DNA from: Polytrichum commune
Lineage: Eukaryota; Streptophyta; Polytrichopsida; Polytrichales; Polytrichaceae
Reading direction: 5' to 3'
DNA length: 64,000 bases
NCBI GenBank assembly: GCA_950295325.1
Contig: OX485805.1
Coordinates: forward strand, 44,976,758 to 45,040,757
Numbering within the stretch: the first letter of the stretch is position 1; each line of letters starts with the position of its first letter. Made by a program: the position numbers and the translations under genes. Below the pieces are notes generated by a model that saw nothing but the letters and a program-made list of their open reading frames with translations, was not told the origin of the DNA and searched no databases. Of the stretch, positions 741-59,200 are shown in pieces.

Positions 741-3700
741 ATGGCAAATGTTATGCGGCTAGCAATGGGGAGTGTGAAATTTCCCGAAATATCATTGTTG
801 GACGAAGTATTGAATAGAAGACAATGCGAGAATTTGTTCTTCAACTTTCAAAATGGTGTGCAAGCATTGCAAAGCATCACAAGTAGTCAAAACGAGGTGT
901 TCCGCAAAGCAGAAGAAGATCTATATCAAATTGTATACAAAGAAAAAGTGCTAATTGAAGATTGTTGCAGAGAAGATTGGTGTCGAGTTGTAGTGACACA
1001 ACTGACCAACAAAGAGGGCTTTAGAGAACTCCTTTTGGACTTTGAAAATTGTTTCCATACAATTTGTGACATATCTTGCCTTCACCATCCGGTTCAAGCA
1101 TCAAAGATTCTTGCGATGAGGAATGATATGACATTCTACCCAACATCAATCGATGCAGTTAAAGAGGATCAAACTTCAATATGTGGAAGGTTTTCTAAGC
1201 ATTTGGATTCATGTACAACCATGGATTGCGATGATTGCAAACTTGCGCAATACCTTAAGGAGTACCTAAGGAGTCTACAACATGTTGAAGGTGGTGGATT
1301 GGACAAAATTGATTTTCCTTACAATTATCCTCGCCCCAAATATACAAGAAATCCACCTAAGGTTTTGGGAAGGTCAAACAACATGTGTGTGTTCTTGACA
1401 AATTGGTTGGGTTTGGAGTCTGCAACAAAGGTGTTTGACATCCGTGATCCCAAGAACATAAAACGACTTTGGAAAGAAGCAAGTATTTTGGGAGGGTTGA
1501 ATCATCCAAACATCATCAAATTTTATTGTTGTGGTTTTCTTGAGATGGAAAACCAATTTGAGCTTGTTATGGAATATGGAAAGAAAACCTTATCTGATCA
1601 TCTAAATGAAGAAGGACCTCTTGAAGAGACAAATGCAATGGAAATTATGTTACAAATTGCAAATGGAATGTGCTACCTTCATGATATGAAGGTGGCACAT
1701 CGTGACCTAAAGCCTGGTAATGTTGTTGTGAGTCTACCAAATGATTCGACGTTGATTAATCTCGGGTGCATACAAGTGAAATTACTTGATTTTGGTATTT
1801 CAAAGGTTGAAGTGAAGGATTATAAGGAGGTGCCCACAGGTCGATACATAGGAACTCATGGATACATGGCGCCGGAGATCATGATGAATGAATTATCCGA
1901 GGTGGATGCTTTGAAAGCTGATGTGTTTAGTTTTGGAATGTTGTGTTCTGATATTCTTTCGGCAAAGAAACATCCTTTTGATTCGTTTCGTGAATATCGA
2001 AAGTACATATTAGAAGATTCTAGTAGACCAAAGCTGCCAGAATCCTATTCGGAAGGATTAAGATCAATGGTGCATGATTGTTGGTCGTTGGATCCTTTGG
2101 AAAGACCAACATTTCTTGATATTCACAACAAACTTACAAGTTTGAAAAGACCTACAATCCTCAAGGGTGTGGTTACGACTGGAGGAGCTACAAATGATAC
2201 ACGTGGCTCCTTATGGAAAGTTTTATTATACTTATGCTTTGTTTTGGTCTTTTGGATCCGATACTTATGGTTTGTATTCAAATTTAAACATACTAATCGT
2301 CCAACCTTATTTTCAAGCGCCCAAAAGGTCTCTAATGGATCATCATCAAATCCATTTTCCATGAAGGTAAGCGTGTGGTTGAGTTTATAAATGGAAGTTA
2401 CTAGATTTCAATTTTATTTGGGATAATTGAAGAGGCCTCACCAACTCTATCATGTTAATAACACTCACTAATGTTGAGAAGTTGGAAATTTTGTAGGTCA
2501 ACAATGATGACAACATGAAAGAATTTTCCAAATTAATTGGAATCCAAGACAAAGTTTTCCAATTGGAAAGGCAACTTCAAAGTGTTGATTGTCTAGGACT
2601 TGTTGGCATGGGCGGAAGTGGCAAGTCAACGTTGGCTAAGGCTTTGAGTGACCACATCTCCAAGAGTTTTGATGTAACATGTTTTGTGTACGACTTGAAG
2701 GATGAAACTTGTACATTGCAAGTACAACACAACTCCAAAGGCATGCAAGACTCACGTCCCCAAGCCAAAACATTGATAAAGACACAAGAGATATTGAAAA
2801 ATATTCAAAGAACAAAAACAATTCTCATTGTGGTGGACAATCTGGGCAAACAAAGTCAACTACAACAACTATTGGATGATGGTTTATTCAAAAATATCAA
2901 TGGCAGTAGGTTGATTGCAAGTTCTCGTGATTGGAAGTCCTTGGAACAACATGTACCCATGGGTGGTAAAGTAGACATGCAAACCCTCGATGGGAACCAA
3001 GCTATGGAGCTATTTTCAATGTATGCTTTTGGGACCAACCAATCATGTTCACCTCATTTAAAACATGTGGTTGAAAAGATTGTGGATGCATGTTGTGGGC
3101 TTCCTTTGAGTTTGGAGGTGATGGGCAAATGCATGCAAGGGGAAACACGATTGAGAATATGGGAGCGAACATTGTGTAGGGTGTTGAGGGCAAGACATGA
3201 TGGAGGTTCAGATGAGAAGATTTGGAAGACATTGAGAATAAGCTTTGATGAGCTGAATGATCTAGAAAGAAACATGTTTCTAGACATAGCATGTTTCTTT
3301 TGTAAAGATACATATCTTGATGATTTTTATCCAACAAAAGAATCATATCTTAGAATGTGGGATGGTGATATCGAGGTTGCCAAAAATGTCTTGAAAAGGC
3401 TTCAAGAAAAATCATTGTTGAAGGTGAACGACTGGGAAGGTTTTTACATTCATGATCAATTGCGTGAGATGGGTCGTCTGATTACGGAAAAAGATTTTAT
3501 GGGGACTCGAATTTTTAATATAAGTTACCATGCATTCGTCAATCGTTGTAAAGATAAGGTATATAGTTTGGGTTTTGTACAAGTTGATATTCCTTATTAA
3601 CTTCTTGACAAGTTCTATTAAATTGCAAAAGTTATATAATATGCCAATAGCTCTAAATCCATTGTATTCGAGATGAAAACAAATCAACTCGTGTGTTTTG

Positions 3701-6457
3701 TTGTGTATGTAGGGCATAGAACTTGTCCAAGGCCTATCAATTACAAATTTGGAAAACAAGTCAATGCATGAAGGAGATGTGGAAATAAAATCGATGGAAA
3801 AGCTTTGTCTACTCCAAGTCCGATTTTGTGAGAATATTAACCCACTTCTTGCTATTGTGAAAAAATCACCCAATCTTAAATGGTTGGACATCCATTTCTC
3901 CCCCGAACATATTGACTCTACAAGGTTGACAAACCGATTCATTGGGAAGTTTTTCATTAATACCCTTGAAAATCTCAAAAACTTGCGGTACCTTGTGATG
4001 TCCAATTGCAATTTTTTGGGATCCATTTCTTGTGCATACTTGAATATGATGCAGATCCGGGAATTATCATTCTCAAATTGCGAACAATTGGATGAATTCC
4101 TCATTGGAATTGATAAACTCATCACCTTAGAAGAGCTAAGTTTCTTCGATTGCAAAGACCTCAAGGGCACCTTTATTCAGATAGGCAACCTATCAGCCTT
4201 GGAAAAATTACAGTTCTCCACATGTCGATATTTAAAAAAAATCCCGGAAAACCTTGGGAACTTGACGAAACTGAAAATACTGCAAATGTATGAATGCGAG
4301 GCGTTGGAGGAGTTCCCTGTTGGAGTAAGCAACCTCGTAGCCCTAGAGGAGCTCCATTTTGGGACATGTCCGGCATTGCAAAGGATTCCGGAAAGCTTTG
4401 GGAACTTGACGAAACTGAAAATACTGCAAATGTATGAATGCGAGGCTTTGGAGGAGTTCCCTGTTGGAGTAAGCAACCTAATAGCATTGGAGGAGCTTCA
4501 TTTTGGGATATGTCGGGCATTGAAAAGGATTCCGGAAAGCTTTGGGAACTTGACGAAACTGAAAATACTGGAAATGTATGAATGCGAGGCTTTGGAGGAG
4601 TTCCCTGTTGGAGTAAGCAACCTCGTAGCCCTAGAGGAGATCCATTTCGGGAGATGTCGGGCATTGAAAAGGATTCCGGAAAGCTTTGGGAATTTGAAAA
4701 AACTGAAAATACTGCGCATGTATGAATGCGAGGCTTTGGAGGAGTTCCCTGTTGGAGTAAGCAACCTAATAGCCTTGGAGGAGCTTCATTTTGGGGGATG
4801 TGGGGCATTGAAAAGGATTCCGGAAAGCTTTGGGAACTTGACGAAACTGAAAATACTGCGCATGTATGAATGTGAGGCTTTGGAGGAGTTCCCTGTTGGA
4901 GTAAGCAACCTAATAGCATTGGAGGAGCTTCATTTTGGGGGATGTGGGGCATTGAAAAGGATTCTGGAAAGCTTTGGGAACTTGACGAAACTGAAAATAC
5001 TGCAAATGTATGAATGCGAGGCTTTGGAGGAGTTCCCTGTTGGAGTAAGAAACCTCGTAGCCCTAGAGGAGCTCCATTTTGGGACATGTCGGGCATTGAA
5101 AAGGATTCCAGAAAGCATTGGGAACTTGACGAAACTGAAAATACTGGAAATGTATGAATGCGAGGCTTTGGAGGAGTTCCCTATTGGAGTAAGCAACCTC
5201 GTAGCCCTAGAGGAGCTCCATTTTGGGACATGTCGGGCATTGAAAAGGATTCCGGAAAGCTTTGGGAACTTGACAAAACTGAAAATACTGCAAATTTATG
5301 AATGCGAGGCGTTGGAGGAGTTCCCTGTTGGAGTAAGCAACCTCGTAGCCCTAGAGGAGCTCCATTTTGGGACGTGTCGGGCATTGAAAAGGATTCCGGA
5401 AAGCATTGGGAACTTGACGAAACTGAAAATACTGGAGATGTATGAATGCGAGGCTTTGGAGGAGTTCCCTGTTGGAGTAAGCAACCTAATAGCATTGGAG
5501 GAGCTTCATTTTGGGATATGTCGGGCATTGAAAAGGATTCCGGAAAGCTTTGGGAACTTGACGAAACTGAAAATACTGCCAATGTATGAATGCGAGGCTT
5601 TGGAAGAGTTCCCTGTTGGAGTAAGCAACCTCGTAGCCCTAGAGGAGCTCCATTTCGGGAGATGTCGGGCATTGAAAAGGATTCCGGAAAGCTTTGGGAA
5701 CTTGATGAAACTGAAAATACTGCAAATGTATGAATGTGAGGCTTTGGAGGAGTTCCCTGTTGGAGTAAGCAACCTCGTAGCCTTAGAAGAGCTCCATTTC
5801 GGGAGATGTCGGGCATTGAAAAGGATTCCGGAAAGCTTTGGGAACTTTAAAAAACTGAAAATATTGCGCATGTATGAATGCGAGGCTTTGGAGGAGTTCC
5901 CTGTTGGAGTAAGCAACCTGATAGCATTGGAGGAGCTTCATTTTGGGGGATGTGGGGCATTGAAAAGGATTCCGGAAAGCTTTGGGAACTTGACGAAACT
6001 GAAAATACTGGAAATGTATGAATGCGAGGCTTTGGAGGAGTTCCCTGTTGGAGTAAGCAACCTCGTAGCCCTAGAGGAGCTCCATTTCGGGAGATGTCGG
6101 GCATTGAAAAGGATTCCGGAAAGCTTTGGGAACTTGACGAAACTAAAAATACTGCAAATGTATGAATGTGAGGCTTTGGAGGAGTTCCCTGTTGGAGTAA
6201 GCAACCTCGTAGCCCTAGAGGAGCTCCATTTCGGGAGATGTCGGGCATTGAAAAGGATTCCGGAAAGCTTTGGGAACTTGACGAAACTGAAAATACTGCG
6301 CATGTATGAATGTGAGGCTTTGGAGGAGTTCCCTGTTGGAGTAAGCAACCTGATAGCATTGGAGGAGCTTCATTTTGGGATATGTGGGGCATTGAAAAGG
6401 ATTCCGGAAGGCTTTGGGAACTTGACGAAACTGAAAATATTGCAAATGTATGAATGA
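741..6457 (+). CDS. Kinase-NB-ARC-LRR receptor (PNL1), three exons
   Basis: Predicted intracellular immune receptor of the moss kinase-NB-LRR class. Exons are 741-2366, 2497-3558 and 3713-6457; introns of 130 and 154 bp have GTAAGC/GTATAT donors and TAG acceptors, both phase 0. The product is about 1810 residues. The kinase domain spans about 205-470 with HRDLKPGN near 320, DFG near 350 and APE near 377, but the glycine loop is not canonical (GRSNN). A hydrophobic stretch lies near 492-513. NB-ARC follows: P-loop GMGGSGKST near 580, kinase-2 IVVDN, RNBS-B GSRLIASSRD, GLPL, a TIR-NB-LRR-like FLDIACFF, and IHDQL in place of MHD. The LRR domain starts near 1000 and from about 1076 is a run of 48-residue double repeats. 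The frame stops where a Cys codon TGC of the repeat reads TGA (6455-6457), so the protein may be truncated relative to its ancestor. Function in effector detection is inferred from the family. Confidence 0.85.
2367..2496 (+). other. Intron 1 of PNL1
   Basis: Donor ATGAAG|GTAAGCG and acceptor TTTTGTAG|GTCAAC are conserved at the matching place in PNL2 (53640-53769). Splicing joins the kinase frame to the NB-ARC frame without a shift and restores seven residues before the first Met of the downstream open frame. The intron falls between the hydrophobic stretch and the nucleotide-binding domain. Confidence 0.8.
3559..3712 (+). other. Intron 2 of PNL1
   Basis: Donor GATAAG|GTATAT and acceptor GTATGTAG|GGCATA join the end of NB-ARC to a segment starting GIELVQGLS. 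That resembles the GIExxxGLS linker found after the NB-ARC winged-helix part in TIR-NB-LRR type receptors. The intron is phase 0. The same borders occur in PNL2, ending just before 54987. Confidence 0.8.
4259..6457 (+). repeat. LRR-encoding tandem array, 15 units of 144 nt
   Basis: The spacing from the first to the last copy of the motif encoding MYECEALEEF is exactly 15 x 144 nt (TGC at 4295 to TGA at 6455). Each unit encodes two LRRs, one around KLKILxMYECEALEEFP and one around ALEELHFGxCRALKRIP. Units are almost identical in DNA, so the array is recent or kept uniform by conversion or unequal exchange. Differences concentrate at a few codons: the residue after KIL is Q, E, R or P, and the one before the Cys of FGxC is T, I, R or G. 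Confidence 0.9.
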
Positions 6458-7512
6458 GAGGCTTTGGAGGAGTTCCCTGTTGGAGTAAGCAACCTGACAG
6501 CATTGGAGGAGCTCAATTTTGGGGCATGTCGGGCATTGAAAACGATCCCGGAAAGCTTTGGAAACTTGATGAAACTGAAAATACTGGAAATGTATGAATG
6601 CGAGGCTTTGGAGGAGGTCCCTGTTGGAGTAAGCAACCTGATAGCATTGGAGGAGCTTCATTTTGGGGGATGTGGGGCATTGAAAAGGATTTTGGAAAGC
6701 TTTGGGAACTTCGCGAAACTGAAAATACTGCAAATGTTGAATGCGAGGCTTTGGAAGAGTTCCTTGTTGGAGTAAGCAACCTGATAGCATTGGAGGAGCT
6801 TAATTTGGGGCATGTCGGGCATTGAAAACGATCCCGGAAAGATTTGGAAACTTGACAAAACTGAAAACATTGCGCATGTATGAATGCAAGGCTTTGGAGG
6901 AGTTTTCCTGTTGGACTAAGCAACCTGATAGCGTTGGAGGTGCTCAATTTTGGCAAATGTCCGACATTAAAAAATATTCCGGAAAGCTTTGGGAACTTGA
7001 TGAAATTGAAAATACTTTGCATGTAAGAATGCGAGGCTTTGGAGGAGTTTCCTATTGGAATAAGCAACCTGATAGCGTTTGAAGAGCTCCATTTCCGGAC
7101 ATGTCGGGCATTGAAAACGATCCAGGAAAGCTTTGGGAACTTGTCGAAACTGAAAATGTTGTACATGTTTGAATGTGAGGCTTTGGAGGAGTTTGATGTT
7201 GCTGTAAGAAACCTCGTAGCATTGGAGGAGCTCGATTTTGGGACATGTCAAGGCATTGAAAACGATCTTGTAAAGTTTTGTCAACTTGATGAAACTGAAA
7301 ATATTAAAATAGAATTATGTAGGCTTAGAAATAGTAACCATTATTTTTGCCCTCCCAACATAGTGATCACTGCCAAATGTGATGAGATAATTTCACCTCC
7401 CTCCATGTTGCAAGAAAGGGATCACAACGGACGGGGAGAACCGACAACTACATTATTTTCTCCAATTAGTGTGGGTTACCATTTGGAGACATGTGTCGCT
7501 ATAACGTTTTAA
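6458..7512 (+). pseudogene. Decayed LRR tail of PNL1
   Basis: LRR-coding sequence continues beyond the TGA at 6455-6457 in the same frame for about 100 codons, then breaks. Near 6733 one base is lost (atgttgaatg for atgtatgaatg), near 6805 another T is missing from a TTTTGGGG run, and further shifts and an atgTAA stop follow near 7021-7026. The last open piece (7039-7512) carries three more LRRs and a non-repeat end rich in Cys, Pro and His that may be the ancestral C-terminus. Sequence at about 7290-7350 matches 59133-59200 in PNL2, so both genes once extended this far. Confidence 0.75.
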
Positions 7513-22159: not shown

Positions 22160-23107
22160 TCATTTCTCTTCAACATCTACTCTTTGGAGTTGTGTCATAT
22201 GTTGCACCGCCCATGGATGTTGGAAAAACTCATCAGCCGTCAATCGCACCGATGGATTCACTGCTAACATTTTAAAAAGCACATCTCTTGCACTTTCTGA
22301 CATGGATTTGCATGCTCCAGAAGATGGGAAATCCTTCTCGAATTGTTGATACGCACAAAGTTGTTTCCTTCGTGCGCTCTTCGAGAAGATATCAACTTCT
22401 TCAAGATCGAAAGGTAGTCCGCCAGTGAAGAGCATGTACATGATGCATCCCGCACTCCATATGTCAGATTCACAACCATAGTTTTGTTGGAGGACTTCAA
22501 GGGCCATGTAGCATGGGGTGCCGGCAATTGTAGTCACCTTCTCACCTTCAGTGATCTTCGACAACCCAAAATCGACGAGCTTGACACGTGGGTCATTTGT
22601 GCTACTTTCACAGAGCATGATATTCTCAGGCTTGACATCACCGTGCATGACTCCGGCCGCATGGCAACATCGAATGGCAATCATGATTTGAAGCATCACA
22701 TGCGCCACTAGTTGTTCGGAGCAACCGGAGGGATGTTGCAGAGCAATGAAGTCGAACAAGTCTCCTCCCGAACACAAGTCCATAACAAGGAAGACATAGT
22801 TGGAGTTCTCAAAGATACCGTGAAGGTTGACGACATTGAGTTGGCCAGTTAATCTTAGCATAATTTGAACTTCCTTTCGCACATCCTCCTCATTGAAGTT
22901 TTTGTTTTATTTCGATAGCATTTTGCATGCATATGGGAGGTTTGTGACCTTGTCATAGACTTTGTATACACTGGAGGAGAATCCACTCCCCCAAAACTTC
23001 TCATTGCGGAATTGGTCCTCCACATTTCCAGTGTCTAGTTCTGGAAATAAAGAAGCTCTTCGAACGAACGAGGGCAAGCCGGTGGGCGCTACATATAATT
23101 GAGCCAT
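22160..23107 (-). pseudogene. CDPK/PEPC-kinase-like protein kinase with one nonsense codon
   Basis: This is a single-exon kinase of about 315 codons on the minus strand, the size of a bare CDPK-family catalytic domain such as PEPC kinase, with no EF hands. The first 66 codons give the N-lobe (FWGSGFSSSVYKV glycine loop, YACKM lysine). A TAA follows LSK at 22907-22909, and the same frame then continues through NKNFNEEDVRKEVQIM to the end with no other stop. The C-lobe has LVMDLCSGGDLFDF, HGDVKPEN (HRD reads HGD), DFGLSK, GTPCYMALEV (APE reads ALE), DIWSAGCIMY and HPWA. One nonsense codon plus two altered motif residues suggests an inactivated gene. A very short intron or sequencing error would be the alternative; no splice pair removing only the stop is evident. 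In family members this kinase phosphorylates Ser/Thr in the cytosol. Confidence 0.75.
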
Positions 23108-38746: not shown

Positions 38747-38954
38747 GGTCCCTTCCTTCTCCTCCCCACTTTTTCGTAAGAGGAAAATTTGTTGAGAGAA
38801 CGAGTGGTGAGGTTGTTTTTCGAGCCGCGAGCAGTTGGATTGCTGGGACTCCGCAATTTCTAGTTACCGGCAGTTGGCTTGCCGGGACTCCGTAGCAATT
38901 AAGCGGAAGAGAGGGAACCCGGAGGGGAGAGAATTTCCGTGGTTGTGACAGTGG

Positions 38955-39786
38955 TTGAGAGAAGAAAGGAAAATGCCAGAAGCACGGGAAGAGGATCGGA
39001 GGGAACCCATCCCGATTCCGCTCAAAGCCCTCATCCCTGCAATTCCGAGGGAGGACGGGGAGCTGCAGGAGTTAGCGGAGGATCTCCGGGTTATGGGTTG
39101 CGAGGGTTTGCTCGCCAAACCCTGGGACCTCCGAGCGGCAGATACCCTCCGGGAATTCAAGTTCGAGAGAGGGAATCAATGGCTGGGAACTAAAAGGAGG
39201 GATCCGGATAGTTGGACTCCGGAAGTCTGGAATAGGGTTTACGGGTTTCCGAAAGGAATTGCAGAGGGATGGGCCGGCCGCCTCGATGGCCTGTTTGCCG
39301 GAAAGTTTAGAGGAGACACGGACCCGAAGGATGGCTTCCACCCCGGGAACTGCCGGAATCTTAGAGAGCGGAGGGTATTAGAGTTCCTCATGCCCATCCT
39401 TAACCCGGACAAGCCTAAGCGGATAAGCCTTACCATGGCTAACACCCTGTTCGGTGCTATGTCCGGAGTCCGGCCTGTGAATTGGGGGTTGATAATTCAC
39501 GAGGTAGTAGGGCGGGCCCTCCCCAATGTAGGCCGGAAACCCTCCTTCCTCTCTACCTTCATTCTGCACCTCTACCAGCACTTCGACTGCATCACGGCCG
39601 AGGAGGAGGACATGCTGACTATAGCGTCGGACGAAGTCACCTACAAGCTCCATCCGGAAGTCGGAGACATCGAGACGGAAACCTCAAGCGACCCCATCAT
39701 TCCGGAAGCGCCTCCCTTTTCACCCGGAAGCCCGCCGCCGATCCTCCAGAGACCAACCTCTCCTCCCCCTCATTATCATCCGGAAG
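38955..39786 (+). pseudogene. Element B ORF, N-terminal part (plant-transposon/gag-like domain)
   Basis: Codes for about 277 residues up to the hAT insertion; the Met at 38973 (MPEAREEDRR) is as likely a start as 38955. The order WDLRAADTLREFKFERG, a WNRVYGFP turn, ERRVLEFLMPILNP, NTLFGAMSGVRPVNWGLIIH and LSTFILHLYQHFD resembles the putative plant transposon protein domain (PF20167 type) found near gag in LTR elements. That match is from memory of the family pattern and is tentative. The end is Pro/Ser-rich (SPGSPPP). No catalytic motif is present. Codon use is GC-rich like the rest of element B. Confidence 0.55.
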
Positions 39787-40494
39787 CAGGGTTGTCTATC
39801 CCGACGTCATGACGTGTCGTGTCGTGACGGACCCCTCCGTCACGACACAATAGGGTCCACGTAGGGTCAACCTAGGGGGAAGCTAGTAGGGTGGGCAAAA
39901 TACTTACCTTCTTGCCAAGGTGGCGTCCTATGTGGCAGATAAGGCCGACGTGGACGTGGATATGCCTAGCGCCAGGTAAACCATTTTTCCATTCTGTTTA
40001 TCATTCTGTTAAAATCAAAGTAGTAAAATATGACTAAGGAGGGTGTGGGGCGGACGGGGGACGAGGGTGGGGTGGACGGGGGGGGGGACCGGGGTCGGGA
40101 ACGGGGCGGACGGGGGGGAACGGGGGGGCGGACGGGGGGGGGGGGAGAACGGGGTCGGGAACGGGGCGGACGGGGCGGACGGGGGGGAGAACGGGGCGGT
40201 GGACGGGGGGCAACGGGGACGGACGGGGGTTGGGAACGGGGGTAGACGGGGGGCGGACGGGCGCTAGTAATTTTTTCCCCACTTTACCTCTACTTTGCTG
40301 ACATGTCATCACATGTGGACATCTTACATCCTACGTGTCCGAAATGGGGTAATGTAATTACACACAAAATTCGGTAAAATTCAAGTCCGTCAGGATAAAG
40401 ACAACATCCGGCATAATGTCGTGACGGATACGTGTCGTGATGGCACGACATTATGCCGAGATTAGCCTCCGTCACGACACAATAGACAACCCTG
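39787..40494. mobile_element. hAT-like non-autonomous element inside the element B ORF
   Basis: A 708-bp insertion with termini CAGGGTTGTCTAT and ATAGACAACCCTG and an 8-bp target duplication TCCGGAAG (39779-39786 and 40495-40502). CAGGG-type ends with 8-bp duplications are the hallmark of the hAT superfamily. Beyond the termini both arms carry the word gtgtcgtgacgga and its complement, so the ends can fold back on themselves. It has no transposase frame. Its centre is a long G-rich run (separate entry). Confidence 0.85.
40040..40262 (+). repeat. G-rich minisatellite core of the hAT-like element
   Basis: About 220 bp composed almost wholly of G with interspersed GAC, AAC and GTC, repeating the theme gacgggg and gaacgggg, with runs of up to ten G. 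There are dozens of G3+ tracts on one strand, so stable G-quadruplexes are expected. The Gly/Arg-rich or Pro-rich frames that cross it in all phases are low-complexity artefacts. Confidence 0.85.
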
Positions 40495-41292
40495 TCCGGA
40501 AGCAGGACCCAGCCGGGACCACTTGGCGGAACGTGGATCTCTCCGCTTGGGACTTTCTGGAAAATCCCTTCAAGCGGGTCCAGGAGGGGCAGGAGAATCT
40601 GCAGAACCAGTACTTCCGACTGGAACACATCGCCCGGGGAGCGAACCAGGCCTTGGACAACTGCGGACCCGGAAATATTCTCCGGGAGTTGGCGGAGAGG
40701 GCGGACAGGAAGGAGCTCGAGCAAGCCAAGACGGAAAACGCTCACCTCGCCGCGCAGGTAGCGGCCATGACTCAGGAGCTGAGTCAGAAGAGCGAGGAAA
40801 TCCGGAAGTACCACGTGGAGCAGGCAATGGTCTTCAGCCGGATCCGGGAGCTGGTGGGGCATCCGGCAGAGATCGTCAACAAGGCGCATCTCTACGACCG
40901 GATGATGCAGTCCGGAGAACCGGCTTCCGCTAGGCAGGCCCTCCCCATCCTCGTGAAATGGTCACGGACGATGAAGGATCTCCTGGCGGAAATCCAGAAG
41001 GTGGTCCCGCCAAGCGGAACACCCCGGCGGGTACTCTATCCGGGTCCGCCTGGGTCACCAACTGGAACCCTCTACGAGGTAGTTGGTGACGTCGCCTTGG
41101 TCCAGAATCCGCCAATGGCTGGAGGACCCAGCCAGCAGGGAGGTGGCTCTCGGCCTGCCAGTTCCGGAAGAGCCCCGGAAAGGACCCGCTCTCCCCAAGT
41201 GAGGAGGAAGAGCACCGGGTCTGTTAGATCCGGACGGGGCCAATCCCCTGTTCCGCGGACCTCGGATCGATCCCGAACTCCGGACAGAGCTC
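40495..41292 (+). pseudogene. Element B ORF, middle part (coiled coil, basic Ser/Pro tail)
   Basis: This part continues the element's protein after the hAT insertion. The open frame runs NPVRKQDPAGTTWRNVDLSA onward, then a heptad-like region with LQNQYFRLEHIARGANQAL and ENAHLAAQVAAMTQELSQKS that should form a coiled coil, then a Pro/Gly/Ser-rich region ending RSRTPDRA. The stop at 41295-41297 is created only by the nested A2 LTR. Precise removal of the hAT element with one duplication does not join this frame to the 38955 frame: the offset is two bases, so a further indel or splicing is needed. Confidence 0.6.
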
Positions 41293-41779
41293 TGTGAGGC
41301 CAAACCCATCACCCTTAAGCGTCCTAGTCCAGGCAATAGGTTTGGAGATCACATGTATAACATAACAACTTGTGGTAACACTGGATGTGCGTACCACCTT
41401 GATGAGCTTCTAACTTAATTCAAATCATGACATTTTATTAGTGTAAACCTCGTGCATAGGTACATCCTTAGCCCTTTCCAGAGTCCACCCCACCGCCTTT
41501 GCCACGCATGCCTTCAATGATTTCCCTCTTGTAACTTTGGTTCTGGCTGTCGATTCTTCACTAGTGCATGACACCTCGCTGAGGCTATGACATGTTGATT
41601 CCATGAGGCACACATAAGCTTTAATACAAGTGTTGAAAAACACTTGTATAACTTATCGTAGCCTCCTCTTCACAAGCCCCTCACAAATCCTTCCCAAATT
41701 CATTTATTAATGCAGTTCATAATCCTACTAGTTTAATCAACCTCCTAATTAGCTTGCCTAACTAACTCCACTAACCCAG

Positions 41780-51525: not shown

Positions 51526-51985
51526 AGAAGTTATCACTATATAAACCACATGAAATACATAGTTGATATCAACTTTAAAAGGTTTTGTTTAAATCTAGTT
51601 GACGACCTTCATCATAAACTGTAACTTATCATAATTAAAGATCAATTACATGTTTGCTTATGTTGAAGAGGGTAAGCAAGTGCACATCATACTTTGAATA
51701 TGAACTCTTTCGTGGTGAGAGGTTGGTCCAGGGATGCATATGCTGATTTCCATTATATTAAAGATAGAATTATCCTTTGCTCAAATTCTAAGTTGTGTAA
51801 GAATCATTTCATATTAAAAAGTTATGAGAACTTGATTTTTTAAATCTAAACTTTGCATCAATATTTGATGGTTTTTGTGGTTTTTATAGGTTCAAGTTCT
51901 AGTGGGGTTGATTGGTTACTATATATACTTGAAGCATACAATACAACATAATCAAGGTTTGTCAACATTCATTATATCTCTAAAA

Positions 51986-54900
51986 ATGGCAAATGTTATG
52001 CGGCTAGCAATGGGGAGTGTGAAATTTCCCGCAATATCATTGTTGGACGAAGTATTGAATAAAAGACAATGCGAGAATTTGTTCTTCAACTTTCAAAATG
52101 GTGTGCAAGCATTGCAAAGCATCACAAGTAGTCATAACGAGGTGTTCCGCAAAGCAGAAGAAGATCTATATCAAATTGTATACAAAGCAAAAGTGCTAAT
52201 TGAAGATTGTTGCAGAGAAGATTGGAGTCACGTTGTAGTGACACAATTGACCAACAAAGAGGGCTTCAGAGAACTCCTTTTGGACTTTGAAAATTGTTTC
52301 CATACAATTTGTGACATATCTTGCCTTTACCATCCGGCTCAAGAATCGAAAATTCTTGCAATCAAGAATGATATGACATTCTACCCAACATCCATTGATG
52401 CAATTAAAGAGGATCGAACTTCAATATGTGGAAGGTATTCTAAGCATTTGGATTCATGCACAATTGTGGATTGCGATAATTGCAAACTTGCGCAATACCT
52501 TAAGGAGTACCTAAGGAGTCTACAACATGTTGAAGGTGGTGGATTGGACAAAATTGATTTTCCTTACAATTATCCTCGCCCCAAATATTAAAGGAAATCC
52601 ACCTAAGGTTTTGGGAAGGTCAAACAACATGTGTGTGTTCTTGACAGATTGGTTGGGTTTGGAGTCTGCAACAAAGGTGTTTGACATCTGTGATCCCAAG
52701 GACATAAAACGACTTTGGAAAGAAGCAAGTATTTTGGGAGGGTTGAATCATCCAAACATCATCAAGTTTTATTGTTGTGGTTTTCTTGAGGTGGAAAACC
52801 AATTTGAGCTTGTTATGGAATGTGGAAAGAAAACCTTATCTGATTATCTAAATGAAGAAGGTCCTCTTGAAGAGACAACTGCATTGGACATTATGTTACA
52901 AATTGCAAATGGAATGTGCTACCTTCATGATATGAAGGTGGCACATCGTGACCTAAAGCCTGGTAATATGTTGTTGTAACTCTATTACATTAATGTTGTT
53001 GTAACTCTACCAAATGATTCAACGTTGAAAAATCTTGGGTGCATACAAGTGAAATTACTTGATTTTGGTATTTCAAAGGTTGAAGTGAAAGATTATAAGG
53101 AGGTGCCCACAGGTCGATACATAGGAACTCATGGATACATGGCGCCAGAGATCATGGCGAATGAATTATCGGAGGTGGATGCTTTGAAAGCTGATGTGTT
53201 TAGTTTTGGCATGTTGTGTTCTGATATTCTTTCTGCAATGGAACATCCTTTCTATTCATTTCGTGAATATCGAAAGTACATATTAGAAGATTCTAGTCGA
53301 CCAAAGCTGCCAGAATCCTATTCGGAAGGATTAAGATCAACGGTGCATGATTGTTGGTCGTTCGATCCCTTGGAAAGACCAACATTTCTTGATATTCACA
53401 ACAAACTTACAAGTTTGAAAAGACCTACAATCCTCAAGGGTGTGGTTACGATTGGAGGAGCTACAAATGATACACGTGGCTCCTTATGGAAAGAATTATC
53501 ATACTTATGCTTTGTTTTGGTCTCTTGGATCCGATACTTATGGTTTGTGTTCAAATTTAAACATGCTAATCATCCAACCTTATTTCCAAGCGCCCAAAAG
53601 GTCTCTAATGGATCCTCATCAAATCCATTTTCCTTGAAGGTAAGCGTGTGGTTGAATTTATAAATGGAAGTTCCTAGATTTCAATTTTATTTGGGATAAT
53701 TGAAGATGCCTCGCCAACTGTATCATGTTCATAACACTCACTAAATTTGAGAAGTTGGAAATTTTGTAGGTCAACAATGATGACAACATGAAAGAATTGT
53801 CCAAATTAATTGGAGTCCAAGGCAAAGTTTTCCAATTGGAAAGGCAGCTTCAAAGTGTTGATTGTCTAGGACTTGTTGGCATGGGTGGAAGTGGCAAGTC
53901 GACGTTGGCTAAGGCTTTGAGTGACCACATCTCTGAGGGATTTAATGCAACATGTTTTGTGTACGACTTGAAGGATGACTACTTGTACATTGCAAGTACA
54001 ACACAACTCCAAAGGCATGCAAGACTCACGCCCCCAAGCCAAAACATTGATAAAGACACAAGAGATATTGAAAACCATTCAAAGAACAGAAACAATTCTC
54101 ATTGTGGTGGACAATGTGGGCAAACAAAGTCAACTACAACAACTCTTGGATAATGGTTTATTCAAAAATGTCAATGGTAGTAGGTTGATTGCAAGTTCTC
54201 GTGATTGGAACTCCTTGGAACAACATGTACCCATGGGTGGTAAAGTAGACATGCAAACCCTCGATGGGAACCAAGCTATGGAGCTATTTTCAATGTATGC
54301 TTTTGGGACCAACCAATCATGTTCACCTCATTTAAAACATGTGGTTGAGAAGATTGTGGATGCATGTTGTGGGCTTCCTTTGAGTTTGGAGGTGATGGGC
54401 AAATGCATGCAAGGGGAAACACGATTGAGAATATGGGAGCGAACATTGTATAGGGTGTTGAGGGCAAGACATGATGGAGGTTCAGATGAGAAGATTTGGA
54501 AGACATTGAGGATAAGCTTTGATGAGCTAAATGATCTAGAAAGAAACATGTTTCTAGACATAGCATGTTTCTTTTGTGAAGATGCATATCTTGATGATGT
54601 TTATCCAACAAAAGAATCATATCTTAGAATGTGGGATGGTGATATCGAGGTTGCCGAAAATGTCTTGAAAAGACTTCAAGAAAAATCATTGTTGAAGGTG
54701 AACGACTGGGAAGGTTTTTACATTCATGATCAATTGCATGAGATGGGTAGTCTGATTACGGAAAAGGATTTTATGGGGACTCGAATTTTTAATATAAGTT
54801 ACCTTGCATTCTCCAATCGTTGTAAAGAAAAGGTATATAATTTGGGTTTTGTACAAGCTGATATTCCTTATTAACTTCTTGACAAGTTCTATTATATTGC

Positions 54901-57900
54901 AAAAGTTATATAATATGCCAATAGCTCTAAATCCATTGTATTCGAGATGGAAACAAATAAACTCATGTGTTTTGTTGTGTATGTAGGGCATAGAACTTGT
55001 CCAAGGCCTATCAATTACAAATTTGGAAAACATGTCAATGTATGAAGGAGATGTGGAAATAAAATCGATGGAAAAGCTGTCTACTCCACGTCCGATTTTG
55101 TGAAAATGTTAACATGCTTTCTGCTATTGTGAAGAAATCACCCAATCTTAAATGGTTGTACATCCAATTCTCGCCCAAACGCATTGACTCTACAAGGTTG
55201 ACAAACCAATTCATTGGGAAGTTTTTCATTGATACCCTAGAAAATCTCCAAAATTTGCGATACCTTACGATGTCCAATTGCAATCTATTCGGATCCATTT
55301 CTTGTGAATACTTGAATATGATGCAGCTCCGGGAATTATCATTCTCAAATTGCAAAAAATTGGATTAATTCCTCATTGGACTTGATAAACTCATCACCTT
55401 GGAAGAGTTATGCTTCTACAAATGCAAAAGACCTCAATGGCACCTCTATTGAGCTAGCCAACCTGTCAGCCTTGGAAAATTTATTCTTTTCCAAATGTCG
55501 ATGTTTAAAAACAATACCACAAGGCTTTGGCAACTTGACGAAACTCAGAATATTGAACATGTATGAATGTGAGGCTTTGGAGGTGTTCCCTGTTGGATTG
55601 TGTAACCTCATAGCATTGGAGGAGCTAAGTTTTGCGACATGTCCGACATTGAAAACGACCCCGGAAAGCTTTGGCAACTTGACAAATCTGAAGACACTGC
55701 GCATGTATCAATGCGAGGCTTTGGAGGAGTTCCCTATTGGAGTAAGCAACCTCGTAGCCTTGGAGGAGCTTAATTTCATGACATGTCAAGCATTGAAAAC
55801 GATCCCGGAAACCTTTGGCAACTTGACAAAATTGAAAATACTATACATGTCTGAATGTGAGTCTTTGGAGGAGTTCCCTGTTGGAGTAAGCAACCTCGTA
55901 GCCCTCGAGGAGCTCCATTTTGGGAAATGTCAGGCATTGAAAACAATCCCGGAAAGCTTTGGCAACTTGACGAAACTGAAAATACTACGCATGTTTAAAT
56001 GTGAGGCTTTGGAGGAGTTCCCTGTTGGAGTAAGCAACCTCGTTGCCTTGGAGGAGCTCCATTTCGTAAGATGTCGGGCCTTGAAAAGGATCCCAGAAAG
56101 CTTTGGCAACTTGACGAAATTGAAAATACTACGCATGTTTGAATGTGATGCTTTCGAAGAGTTTCCTGTTGGAGTAAGCAACCTCGTAGCCTTGGAGGAG
56201 CTTAATTTCGCGACATGTCCGGCATTGAAAAGGATCCCGGAAAGCTTTGGCAAATTGACAAAACTAAAAATACTGTGCATGTTTGAATGTGACGCTTTGG
56301 AGGAGTTCCCTGTTGGAGTAAGCAACCTCGTAGCCCTCGAGGAGCTCCATTTTGGGAAATGTCACGCATTGAAAACGATCTCGGAAAGCTTTGGAAACTT
56401 GACGAAACTGAAAATACTACGCATGTTTGAATGTGACGCTTTGGAGGAGTTCCCTGTTGGCGTAAGCAACCTCGTAGCCTTGGAGGAGCTTAATTTCGCG
56501 ACATGTCGGGCATTGAAAAGGATCCCGGAAAGCTTTGGCAACTTGACAAAACTGAAAATACTGTGCATGTTTGAATATGACGCTTTGGAGGAGTTCCCTG
56601 TTGGAGTAAGCAACCTCGTAGCCCTCGAGGAGCTCCATTTTGGGAAATGTCACGCATTGAAACGATCCCGGAATGCTTTGGCAACTTGAGGAAACTGAAA
56701 ATACTACACATGTTTGAATGTGACGCTTTGGAGGAGTTCCCTGTTGGTGTAAGCAACCTTGTAGCCTTGGAGGAGCTTAATTTCGCGACATGTTGGGCAT
56801 TGAAAACAATCCCGAAAAGCTTTGGCAACTTGAAGAAACTTAAAATACTACGCATGTCTGAATGTGACGCTTTCGAAGAGTTCCCTGTTGGAGTAAGCAA
56901 CCTTGTAGCCTTGGAGGAGCTTAATTTTGCAACATGTCGGACATTGAAAACAGTCCCGGAAAGCTTTGGCAACTTGGCGAAACTTAAAATGTTATGCATG
57001 TCTGAATGTGAGGCTTTGGAGGAGTTCCCTGTTGGAGTAAGCAACCTTGTAGCCTTGGAGGAGCTCCATTTCGGGACATGTCCAGTATTGAAAAGGTTGC
57101 CGGAAAGCTTTGGGAACTTGACGAAATTGAAAATACTACGCACCTATCAATGTGAGGCTTTGGAAGTGTTCCCTGTTGGAGTAAGCAACCTCGTAGCCCT
57201 AGAAGAGCTGCATTTTGCGACATGTCGAGCATTGAAAACGATCCCAGAAAGCTTTGGCAACTTGACAAATTTGACAACATTGCACATGTGGGAATGTGAG
57301 GCTTTGGAGGAGTTCCCGGTTGGAGTAAGCAACCCGGTAGCGTTGGAGGAGCTCAATTTCGGGAGATGTCGAGCATTGAAAAGGATCTCGGAAAGCTTTG
57401 GGAACATGACGAAACTAAAAATACTGCACATGTATGAATGCGAGGCTTTGGAGGAGTTCCCTATTGGAGTAAGCAACCTCATAGCGTTGGAAGAGCTCGA
57501 TTTCGGAAGATGTCGAGCATTGAAAAGGATTCCTGAAATCTTTGACAAGATGACAAAATTGAGAATGTTATACATGTCTGAATGTGAGGCTTTGGAGGAG
57601 TTCCATGTTGGAGTAAGCAACCTGATAGCCTTGGAGGAGCTCCATTTTGCAAGATGTCGGGCCTTGAAAAAGATCCTGGAAAGCTTTGGAAACTTGACAA
57701 AATTGAAAATATTGCGCATGTTTAAATATGAGGCTTTGGAGGAGTTTCCTGCCGGAGTAAGCAACCTCATAGCGTTGGAGGATCTCCAATTGCAGACATG
57801 TCGGGCATTGAAAAGGATTCCGGAAAGCTTTGGCAACTTAACAAAACTGAAAATACTGCGCATGTTTGAATGCGAGGCTTTGGAGGAGTTCCCTATTGGT

Positions 57901-59200
57901 GTAAGCAACCTCGTAGCCCTTGAGGAGCTCCATTTCGGGACATGTCCAGCATTGAAAAGGATCCCGGAAAGCTTTGGCAACTTGACGAAACTAAAAATAC
58001 TGCGTATGTTTGAATGAGAGGTTTTAAAGGAGTTCCTTGTTGGAGTAAGGAACCTCGTAGCCCTTGACGAGCTCCATTTCGAGACATGTCCGGCATTGAA
58101 AAGGATCCCGGGCCGGAAATCTTTGGCAACTTGATAAAACTGAAAATATTGTGCATGTATGAATGCGAGGCTTTGGAGGAGTTACTTGTTGGAGTTAGCA
58201 ACCTCGTAGCCTTGGAGGAGCTCCATTTCTAGACATTTTGCGCATTGAAAAGGATCCCGGAAAGCTTTGGCAACTTGATAAAACTGAAAATGTTGTGCAG
58301 GTCTGAATGTGAGGCTTTAGAGGAGTTGCGTGTTGGAGTAAGCAACCTTGTGGCCTTGGAGGAGCTCCATTTCCAAACGTATCAGGCATTGAAAACGATC
58401 CCTGAAAGCTTTGGGAACTTGACAAGATTGAAAATGTTGTGCATGTTTGAATGGGAGGCTTTGGAGGAGTTTCTTGTCGGAGTAAGCAACCTCATAGCGT
58501 TGGAGGAACTCCAATTGCAGACATGTCCGGCATTGAAAAGGATTCCGGAAAGCTTTGGCAACTTGACGAAATTCGAAATACTGCGCATGTTTGAATGTGA
58601 GGCTTTGGAGGAGATCCCTGTTGGAGTAAGCAACCTCATAGCCCTTGAGGAACTCCATTTCAAGACATGTCCGGCATTGAAAAGGATTCCGGAAAGCTTT
58701 GGAAACTTGAGGAAACTGAAAATACTGCGCATGTATGAATGTGAGGCTTTGGAGGAGTTTCCTGTTGGAGTAAGCAACCTCGTAGCCCTGAAGGAGCTCC
58801 ATTTTGCAGCATGTATGGCATTGAAAACGGTCCTCGAAAGCTTTGGGAACTTGACAAGACTGAAAATGTTGTACATGTCTGAATGTGAGGCTTTGGAGGA
58901 GTTCCCTGTTGGAGTAGGTAACCTCGTAGCCCTGGAGGAGCTCAATTTCGCGGCATGTCGGGCATGAGAAATTGTTCCGGAGAGCTTTGACAACTTGACG
59001 AAACTAAAAATACTGCACATGTTTGAGGCTTTGGAGGAGTTCCTTGTTGGAGTAAGCAACCTCATAGCCTTGGAGGAGATCAATTACATGATATGTCGGG
59101 CATTGAAAACGATCCCGAAAGGCTTTGTCAACTTGACGAAATTGAAAATATTAAAATAGAATCATGTAGGCTTAGATAACCAATATTTTTGCCCTCCCAA
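51986..59200 (+). pseudogene. Kinase-NB-ARC-LRR paralogue PNL2, multiply broken
   Basis: Full-length relative of PNL1 with the same exon order (51986-53639, 53770 on, 54987 on). Lesions seen: one extra base and TAA near 52589 before the kinase domain; a 27-nt duplication-like insertion after HRDLKPGN that brings TAA at 52977; one extra base near 53975 in NB-ARC; two bases lost near 55078; GAA to TAA at 55366-55368; one extra base near 55425; one base lost near 56660; TGA at 58015-58017 in the LRR array; later stops near 58230 and 58965. Kinase HRD, DFG, APE and the P-loop are still readable. The LRR part (55376-58967) keeps the 144-nt period, with units more diverged than in PNL1 (MFECDALEEF, LNFATCRALKTI). 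The 3' end is cut by a CACTA element at 59201. No intact receptor can be made. Confidence 0.85.
55540..58970 (+). repeat. LRR-encoding tandem array of PNL2, diverged
   Basis: About 23 units of 144 nt, in phase except for single-base losses and gains. From the TGT at 55568 to the TGA at 58015 is 17 units minus one base. Unlike PNL1, units differ at many positions, including MYE, MFE, MSE and MWE before the Cys and T, K, R or A around the second Cys. This looks like an older array no longer kept uniform. Confidence 0.8.

Follow-up and report, generated by a model that had tools for sequence, protein, structure and literature searches.

Near-uniform leucine-rich repeat arrays of a moss receptor family with replacement diversity concentrated at concave-face codons

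Background

A locus of the moss Polytrichum commune bears on the question of how, in the absence of somatic diversification, an early land-plant lineage obtains new recognition surfaces. The stretch analysed, referred to here as the window, comprises 64,000 nt of contig OX485805.1 (assembly GCA_950295325.1, positions 44,976,758 to 45,040,757, i.e. 44.98-45.04 Mb) and carries on its plus strand a gene of three exons, gene A, which from its domains probably encodes a plant immune receptor of the intracellular nucleotide-binding leucine-rich repeat (NLR) type. Most of its leucine-rich repeats (LRRs) form an array of 144-nt units, for which an earlier examination of the letters alone (the sequence-only reading) had proposed that the only real variation lies at two predicted ligand-facing codons, as a result of diversifying selection on, or combinatorial shuffling of, a recently amplified surface. 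In this array and in sister arrays of the same genome, the scaffold codons are under strong purifying selection and replacement diversity is concentrated at concave-face positions, namely codons 9 and 36 of the unit in gene A and also codons 11, 33 and 35 in the sisters. The explanation that we consider probable is that unequal exchange and gene conversion homogenise the scaffold within each array of an NLR-type receptor and that selection keeps the side chains of the face diverse. Since the frame is nearly fixed, mainly contact positions vary, and many genes with hundreds of units are available, the question becomes directly testable.

The repeat array of gene A

The joined frame of gene A (5433 nt, 1810 codons and one stop) is intact across GT/AG splice sites and is made up as follows.

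741-2366, plus strand: exon 1, N-terminal region and protein kinase domain (Pfam PF00069, E 8.8e-41, match at about 1410-2129)
2497-3558, plus strand: exon 2, NB-ARC (Pfam PF00931, E 4.2e-22) and winged-helix (WHD_ROQ1, 1e-05) domains
3713-6457, plus strand: exon 3, LRRs (PF23598 LRR_14, E 6.2e-112)
3713-4258, plus strand: start of exon 3, 182 aa of more diverged LRRs ahead of the uniform array, matched in other close genes
4259-6418, plus strand: array of fifteen 144-nt units, each coding for 48 aa in the form of two 24-aa LRRs, from unit alignment and Tandem Repeats Finder
6419-6457, plus strand: incomplete 16th unit (12 codons, then TGA at 6455-6457) and end of the open frame

Exon 1 runs from an ATG at 741 to a GT donor after 2366, exon 2 lies between an AG acceptor and a GT donor, and both lengths (1626 and 1062 nt) are divisible by three; the introns at the two domain boundaries are of phase 0, as deduced from the frame and the GT/AG sites rather than from a transcript. 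The PF00069 match starts at profile position 24, so that the region of the glycine-rich loop is left unmatched. A kinase, an NB-ARC and an LRR domain, as predicted by Pfam, fit the immune receptor that had been proposed.

The 15 units at 4259-6418 are complete, stop-free, in frame and nearly identical, as the sequence-only reading had described them, and the two codons to which it had pointed are indeed the most variable of the 48, with amino-acid heterozygosities of 0.74 (codon 9) and 0.79 (codon 36), the next value being 0.51. Codon 9, which follows KIL (4283-4285 + 144k), reads CAA in six units, CGC in four, GAA in three, and GAG and CCA in one each, that is Q6 E4 R4 P1. Codon 36, which precedes the second Cys (4364-4366 + 144k), reads AGA in five units, ACA, ATA and GGA in three each and ACG in one (R5 T4 I3 G3). 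Replacement diversity per site amounts to 0.46 at these two codons vs 0.026 in the remaining 46. The concentration is therefore real, but they are not the only codons that differ in the protein, as codons 38, 27 and 3 also do. The statement that silent sites barely vary does not hold: overall the proportion of differing silent sites (pS) is 0.171, with 0.043 for replacement sites (pN), and silent variants occur in 14 other codons (1, 3, 5, 8, 13, 15, 17, 26, 28, 29, 30, 32, 34 and 44) as well as inside codons 9 (GAA/GAG) and 36 (ACA/ACG). A quiet silent neighbourhood is found beside codon 9, where among codons 6-8 and 10-12 only codon 8 varies silently, in one unit. Codon 36 lacks such a neighbourhood, since codons 26, 28, 29, 30, 32 and 34 are all silently variable. 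The variants at codons 9 and 36 of this array are outstanding by their frequency more than by the number of changes.

Sister arrays in the genome

The genome (407.8 Mb in 64 contigs) was searched with the 144-nt unit, which rendered at least 262 matches (150 of 2861 candidates scored), and with the NB-ARC exon, which rendered at least 115 (115 of 446 candidates scored), at least 21 of them with 80% identity or more; four of these 21 were left out of the comparison. Among the 115 scored NB-ARC matches, 108 have an identity of at least 53%. A close set, found via the unit itself, comprises 15 fetched loci plus the two arrays of the window (those of gene A and of a broken paralogue, gene B), i.e. 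17 arrays; each contributed its longest open run and no other, which gave 340 open units in all. A distant set comprises 14 loci picked by their NB-ARC, of which only the DNA downstream of the NB-ARC was read; it yielded 13 arrays with 255 units, no array being found at the remaining locus (L018). Arrays are thus present in 30 of the 31 loci examined, the unbiased figure being the 13 of 14 for loci selected solely by their NB-ARC. A cut-off of 80% identity to the consensus of the respective array dropped 10 of the 255 distant and one of the 340 close units and left 584 units in the 30 arrays. Recognition of the distant units relied in part on scaffold Leu and Cys residues, and all runs were required to be stop-free, conditions that somewhat raise the apparent constraint on the scaffold.

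At the distant loci the NB-ARC shares 55-68% identity with its counterpart in gene A, and the units have other scaffolds (e.g. GGLTSLKKL or GGLTCLKKL vs NLTKLKIL); the 48-aa period is found in 13 of 13 arrays. The longest open runs across the 30 arrays span 7 to 36 units, the maximum being reached at L022, with 36 two-LRR units in a row, one of them diverged. The start of exon 3 is matched in all other 16 close genes, over residues 1-182 in 14 of them, 1-180 in L005 and 30-148 in gene B.

Position of the variable residues

The face was defined as the x positions of the LRR consensus xxLxLxx in both LRRs of the unit (codons 6, 7, 9, 11, 12, 30, 31, 33, 35 and 36), a definition adopted after a per-codon variability table had been viewed. 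Within it, the core five are codons 9, 11, 33, 35 and 36, which are, in that order, the most variable codons in the 16 close arrays other than that of gene A. Amino-acid heterozygosity is higher in the face than outside it in 30 of 30 arrays, with ratios from 2.1 to 7.8. In the gene A array just two of the ten face codons vary in the protein, its ratio (2.2) is the third lowest of the 30, and face enrichment has a permutation p of 0.12 when that array is taken alone and of 0.00005 in the held-out arrays. The two distant groups resemble the close one in how variability is distributed over the codons (Spearman correlation 0.75 and 0.70).

Residues that alternate with the leucines of an LRR point outwards. 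In plant LRR proteins the strands line the concave face (PMC4030839). A structure model covering residues 1-470 of exon 3, obtained with 13 sequences (predicted local distance difference test 78.8, predicted template modelling score 0.80), shows strands at regular intervals, as in an LRR solenoid. Codons 7-11 of unit 1 fall in the predicted strand 189-193 and its codons 31-35 in the predicted strand 213-217; codon 9 (residue 191) is in the middle of the former and codon 36 (residue 218) just past the latter. The model hence agrees with the proposal that the variable residues lie beside the LxL strand, either within predicted LRR strands or immediately after them, and by strand position it would place them at the concave strands instead of in a buried core. 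A fold comparison against the PDB gave generic LRR matches, with SHOC2 as the best and RPP1-ATR1 entries at ranks 13, 15 and 16, and does not distinguish functions.

Silent and replacement change

The ratio of replacement to silent diversity (piN/piS) was computed with silent sites weighted for transition bias (kappa 2.26) and bootstrapped over arrays and codons. In the 30 arrays it amounts to 2.34 (1.73-3.28) for the core five, 3.03 for codon 9 and 2.10 for codon 36, as against 0.17 for the scaffold and 0.40 for other codons. The core five give 2.10 (1.40-3.32) in the 17 close and 2.67 (1.89-3.82) in the 13 distant arrays, and the scaffold 0.15 and 0.19, respectively. Codons 9 and 36 together reach 2.36 (1.46-3.91) with the gene A array held out and 5.05 in that array (bootstrap over codons only). 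A restricted set of 24 arrays, leaving aside four close arrays behind a frame break and two distant ones with a shortened or split frame, yields 2.45 (1.81-3.35) for the core five, 1.38 (0.75-2.36) for the ten-codon face and 0.15 for the scaffold; its subsets give for the core five 2.14 (1.33-3.42) in the 13 close arrays in frame with the exon 3 start and 2.85 (1.97-4.22) in the 11 distant ones. Silent and replacement change are accordingly not similar across all codons; the codon classes differ strongly.

Mutational events were also counted. Within arrays, the replacement-to-silent ratio of events (omega) for the face is 2.28 (1.84-3.03) in the close arrays; the distant arrays give 1.30 (1.08-1.48) after cleaning. 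The omega of the scaffold is about 0.16 within close arrays; in the gene A array itself the scaffold codons are constrained by mutation count (3 replacement and 9 silent changes, p 0.005). On a parsimony tree of the 340 units only codons 9, 11 and 36 stand above the neutral expectation after Bonferroni correction and 14 of the 48 codons below it, with 67 replacement and 5 silent changes at codon 9 and 39.5 and 3.5 at codon 36. In a contrast akin to the McDonald-Kreitman test, the face has 0.80 replacements per silent change in old vs 0.48 in recent unit pairs (odds ratio 1.68, p 0.0016), and the direction is reversed for the scaffold (odds ratio 0.66, p 0.07) and other codons (odds ratio 0.76, p 0.06). 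We read this contrast as old face diversity being kept, rather than as fast new mutation.

Reshuffling and age of the units

In 16 of the 17 close arrays, units are more similar to those of their own array than to those of others; only the broken gene B departs from this. In the gene A array the nearest unit lies in the same array for 15 of 15 units, and most units have their nearest relative in their own array in 14 of the 17 close arrays (not in L011, L013 and gene B). Longer periods are also found inside arrays, of 4 units in L002 and L006, 8 in L010 and L012 and 12 in L007, and only 10 distinct units occur among the 34 of L002. Linkage within the unit (r2) falls in the gene A array from 0.55 at 1-9 nt to 0.13 at 91-143 nt, and in the pooled arrays from 0.20 to 0.08, the shuffled value being 0.07. 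This decay indicates that variants are reshuffled between units; in gene A, Q and E at codon 9 each combine with T, I and R at codon 36, and linkage across unit junctions declines with distance. The combinatorial shuffling put forward by the sequence-only reading is in this respect supported. The likeness within arrays, the longer periods and the linkage pattern are taken as marks of unequal exchange and gene conversion.

The recent amplification that had been supposed is not supported. Between gene copies whose exon matches are free of gaps (10, 11 and 15 genes), mean Ks is 0.087 for the kinase exon, 0.082 for the NB-ARC exon and 0.201 for the initial part of exon 3. The pS among units is 0.17 in the gene A array, about twice the value of the sister kinase and NB-ARC exons, and 0.108-0.359 within the 17 close arrays. 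The array would therefore be at least as old as the gene copies, unless homogenisation between genes has affected the 5' exons, and the jump in Ks from about 0.08 to 0.20 looks as if that could have been the case.

Selection, drift and other explanations

The most serious alternative, which we hold to be unlikely though far from negligible, dispenses with diversifying selection: the scaffold would be under purifying selection, the exposed residues would drift, and concerted evolution would keep silent sites similar. Several results favour it or otherwise weigh against selection for diversity. For the ten-codon face the piN/piS is 1.33 (0.76-2.14), which is compatible with neutrality, and the core five, which do exceed the silent level, were chosen after the 17 close arrays had been viewed, though before the 13 distant ones were fetched. 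In the gene A array alone the mutation count at codons 9 and 36 is neutral (6.5 replacement to 2.5 silent changes, omega 0.96, p 0.79); recent face changes, taken from near-identical unit pairs, are also near neutral (omega 1.22, p 0.32), and so is the event-count omega of the face in six arrays labelled tier 2 (1.17, p 0.24). The recent-change test used 99 such pairs and the contrast of old and recent pairs 101, ties having been ordered differently. When each allele is counted once among the 340 units, omega is 1.80 (p 0.013) for the face, 1.52 (p 0.011) for other codons, 1.67 (p 0.21) for codons 9 and 36 and 0.72 for the scaffold, so that face and other codons are not separated, a poor discrimination that we put down to saturation of silent alleles. 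The event counts, moreover, are not independent, given the common ancestry of the arrays and the repetition of events by recombination. Pooled linkage across unit junctions is without clear decay (0.10, 0.12, 0.11, 0.11, 0.09). Finally, the runs used in L008, L009, L013 and gene B (four of the 17 close arrays) lie past a frame break and may be untranslated, and one of the 10 exon 1 copies, that of L011, contains a stop.

On the other side, drift alone should stay at or below the silent level, and the excess at the core five therefore counts against it: the lower bounds of the ratio are above one in both array sets, and remain so (1.33 and 1.97) when the doubtful arrays are removed. The contrast of old and recent pairs also has the direction expected of favoured face diversity. 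The diversifying selection initially suggested for gene A is in consequence upheld in part. The array of this gene, although outstanding by allele frequency, gives a null result by event counts when tested alone, and the claim has for this reason been moved to the level of the family, where the core face codons exceed the silent level across sister arrays.

A second alternative, which appears improbable, sees the array either as a non-functional relic in decay or as serving structure instead of recognition. It draws on the ends of the arrays and on gene B.

6458-7303, plus strand: degenerate continuation of the repeat past the stop codon of gene A, interrupted by frameshifts and stops; the Tandem Repeats Finder array (21.2 copies) reaches 7303
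51890-59150, plus strand: gene B, a broken paralogue that comprises kinase, NB-ARC and about 25 repeat units and whose matches to exons 1 and 2 fall in split, overlapping frames

In gene A six further units follow the 15, the first of which holds the TGA, and their spacing is broken once. Units beyond the longest open run are found in 16 of the 17 close arrays, with the stop at many different unit positions, and the four frame breaks just mentioned lie ahead of the longest run. In gene B the exon 3 start is partial, the array is split into open runs of 8, 9, 4 and 1 units, and pS among the units of the longest run is 0.36, a higher divergence than in gene A. Against decay stand the open frame of gene A over its 1810 codons, a mean Ka/Ks among close gene copies of 0.42 in exon 1 (10 copies) and 0.37 in exon 2, and the low scaffold omega of the close arrays. 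Furthermore, when units are compared with the majority codon of each array, the number of replacement per silent changes in the scaffold is 0.33 in 61 tail units vs 0.20 in the 340 open units, the corresponding values for the face being alike (7.4 and 7.5). The 61 are those of the 93 units after the longest run that passed a filter against insertions and deletions, and in L005 and gene B some of them belong to other open runs. A version of this comparison based on codons never seen elsewhere was dropped, being biased by saturation. It may be that the receptors lack a fixed C-terminal domain and that the position of a stop or frameshift decides how long they are.

A local mutator acting at the variable codons in place of selection, as in diversity-generating retroelements or deaminase hypermutation, would agree with variation limited to a few codons per unit but is very improbable, since it should hit third bases too and silent changes are few at codons 9 and 36 in the tree counts given above, and no reverse transcriptase or template repeat was noticed among the open reading frames of the window, in which no dedicated search was made.

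A possible mode of action

If selection and homogenisation act together as we propose, the receptor would consist of a kinase domain, an NB-ARC switch and, for contact with the target, a long LRR solenoid. Through unequal exchange and gene conversion each array would retain a uniform scaffold and change in length, selection would keep different side chains at the face, and new strings of contact residues would arise through reshuffling together with point mutation. The face might bind pathogen molecules, and this binding could release the NB-ARC switch so that the kinase domain signals. It is conceivable, and we offer this only tentatively, that the family is a natural counterpart of a library of designed repeat proteins, with about a hundred NB-ARC members, a scaffold private to each array and uniform within it, about five diverse contact codons per 48-aa unit, and a specificity equal to a string of side-chain sets that is rewritten by gain, loss and shuffling of units. 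The family could also be a natural template for engineered binding proteins.

Comparison with known systems

The PNL class of mosses (protein kinase-nucleotide-binding site (NBS)-LRR) described by Xue et al. 2012 (PMC3352924) accounts for 45 of the 65 NBS genes of P. patens and has phase-0 introns at the kinase/NBS and NBS/LRR boundaries, and the PpC24 family of Tanigaki et al. 2014 (PMC3991678) is another PNL precedent. Gene A resembles this class in its N-terminal kinase, its NBS of NB-ARC type, its C-terminal LRRs, its phase-0 introns and the large size of its family; by the predicted domain order and intron phase it matches the class. Near-identical two-LRR arrays or selection at face codons are not described in the portions of these two papers that were available, and the word 'selection' has no occurrence in the main text of PMC3352924. 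Expression in N. benthamiana of a kinase domain from a P. patens kinase-NLR led to a response that was modest and variable (PMC11218826).

For the array itself, tomato Cf-2 is the nearest precedent. Cf-2 and Cf-5 have a tandem super-motif of two conserved LRRs (PMC4030839), to which the 48-aa period of gene A corresponds, but they are receptor-like proteins with LRRs of the plant-specific type and a non-LRR island, whereas gene A has a kinase and an NB-ARC domain, and its family reaches the 36 two-LRR units in a row of L022. In the highly variable NLRs of Arabidopsis, such as RPP1 and RPP13 (Prigozhin and Krasileva 2021, PMC8226289), many of the binding residues predicted from high variability are located in the concave LRR beta-sheet, as the variable residues of gene A would be; those receptors, however, vary between alleles of a gene, and gene A between repeat units inside one gene. 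A more remote parallel lies outside plant receptors. Transcription activator-like (TAL) effectors are bacterial DNA-binding proteins of another fold. Their nearly identical repeats have two variable residues each (PMC4522561), as in the gene A array, but the readout of one letter per repeat is a feature of TAL effectors that we do not claim for gene A. A literature search over titles and the openings of abstracts rendered no case of near-uniform two-LRR NLR arrays present in many genes with the same face codons diverse, which does not establish its absence from print.

Other open frames in the window

Outside the receptor genes, an open frame on the minus strand at 22163-22906 contains another protein kinase domain (Pkinase, E 5.4e-55). 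Two long open frames within 38949-41297, without Pfam match at E 0.01, flank a G-rich tandem repeat at 40047-40261 and, together with it, possibly represent a mobile element.

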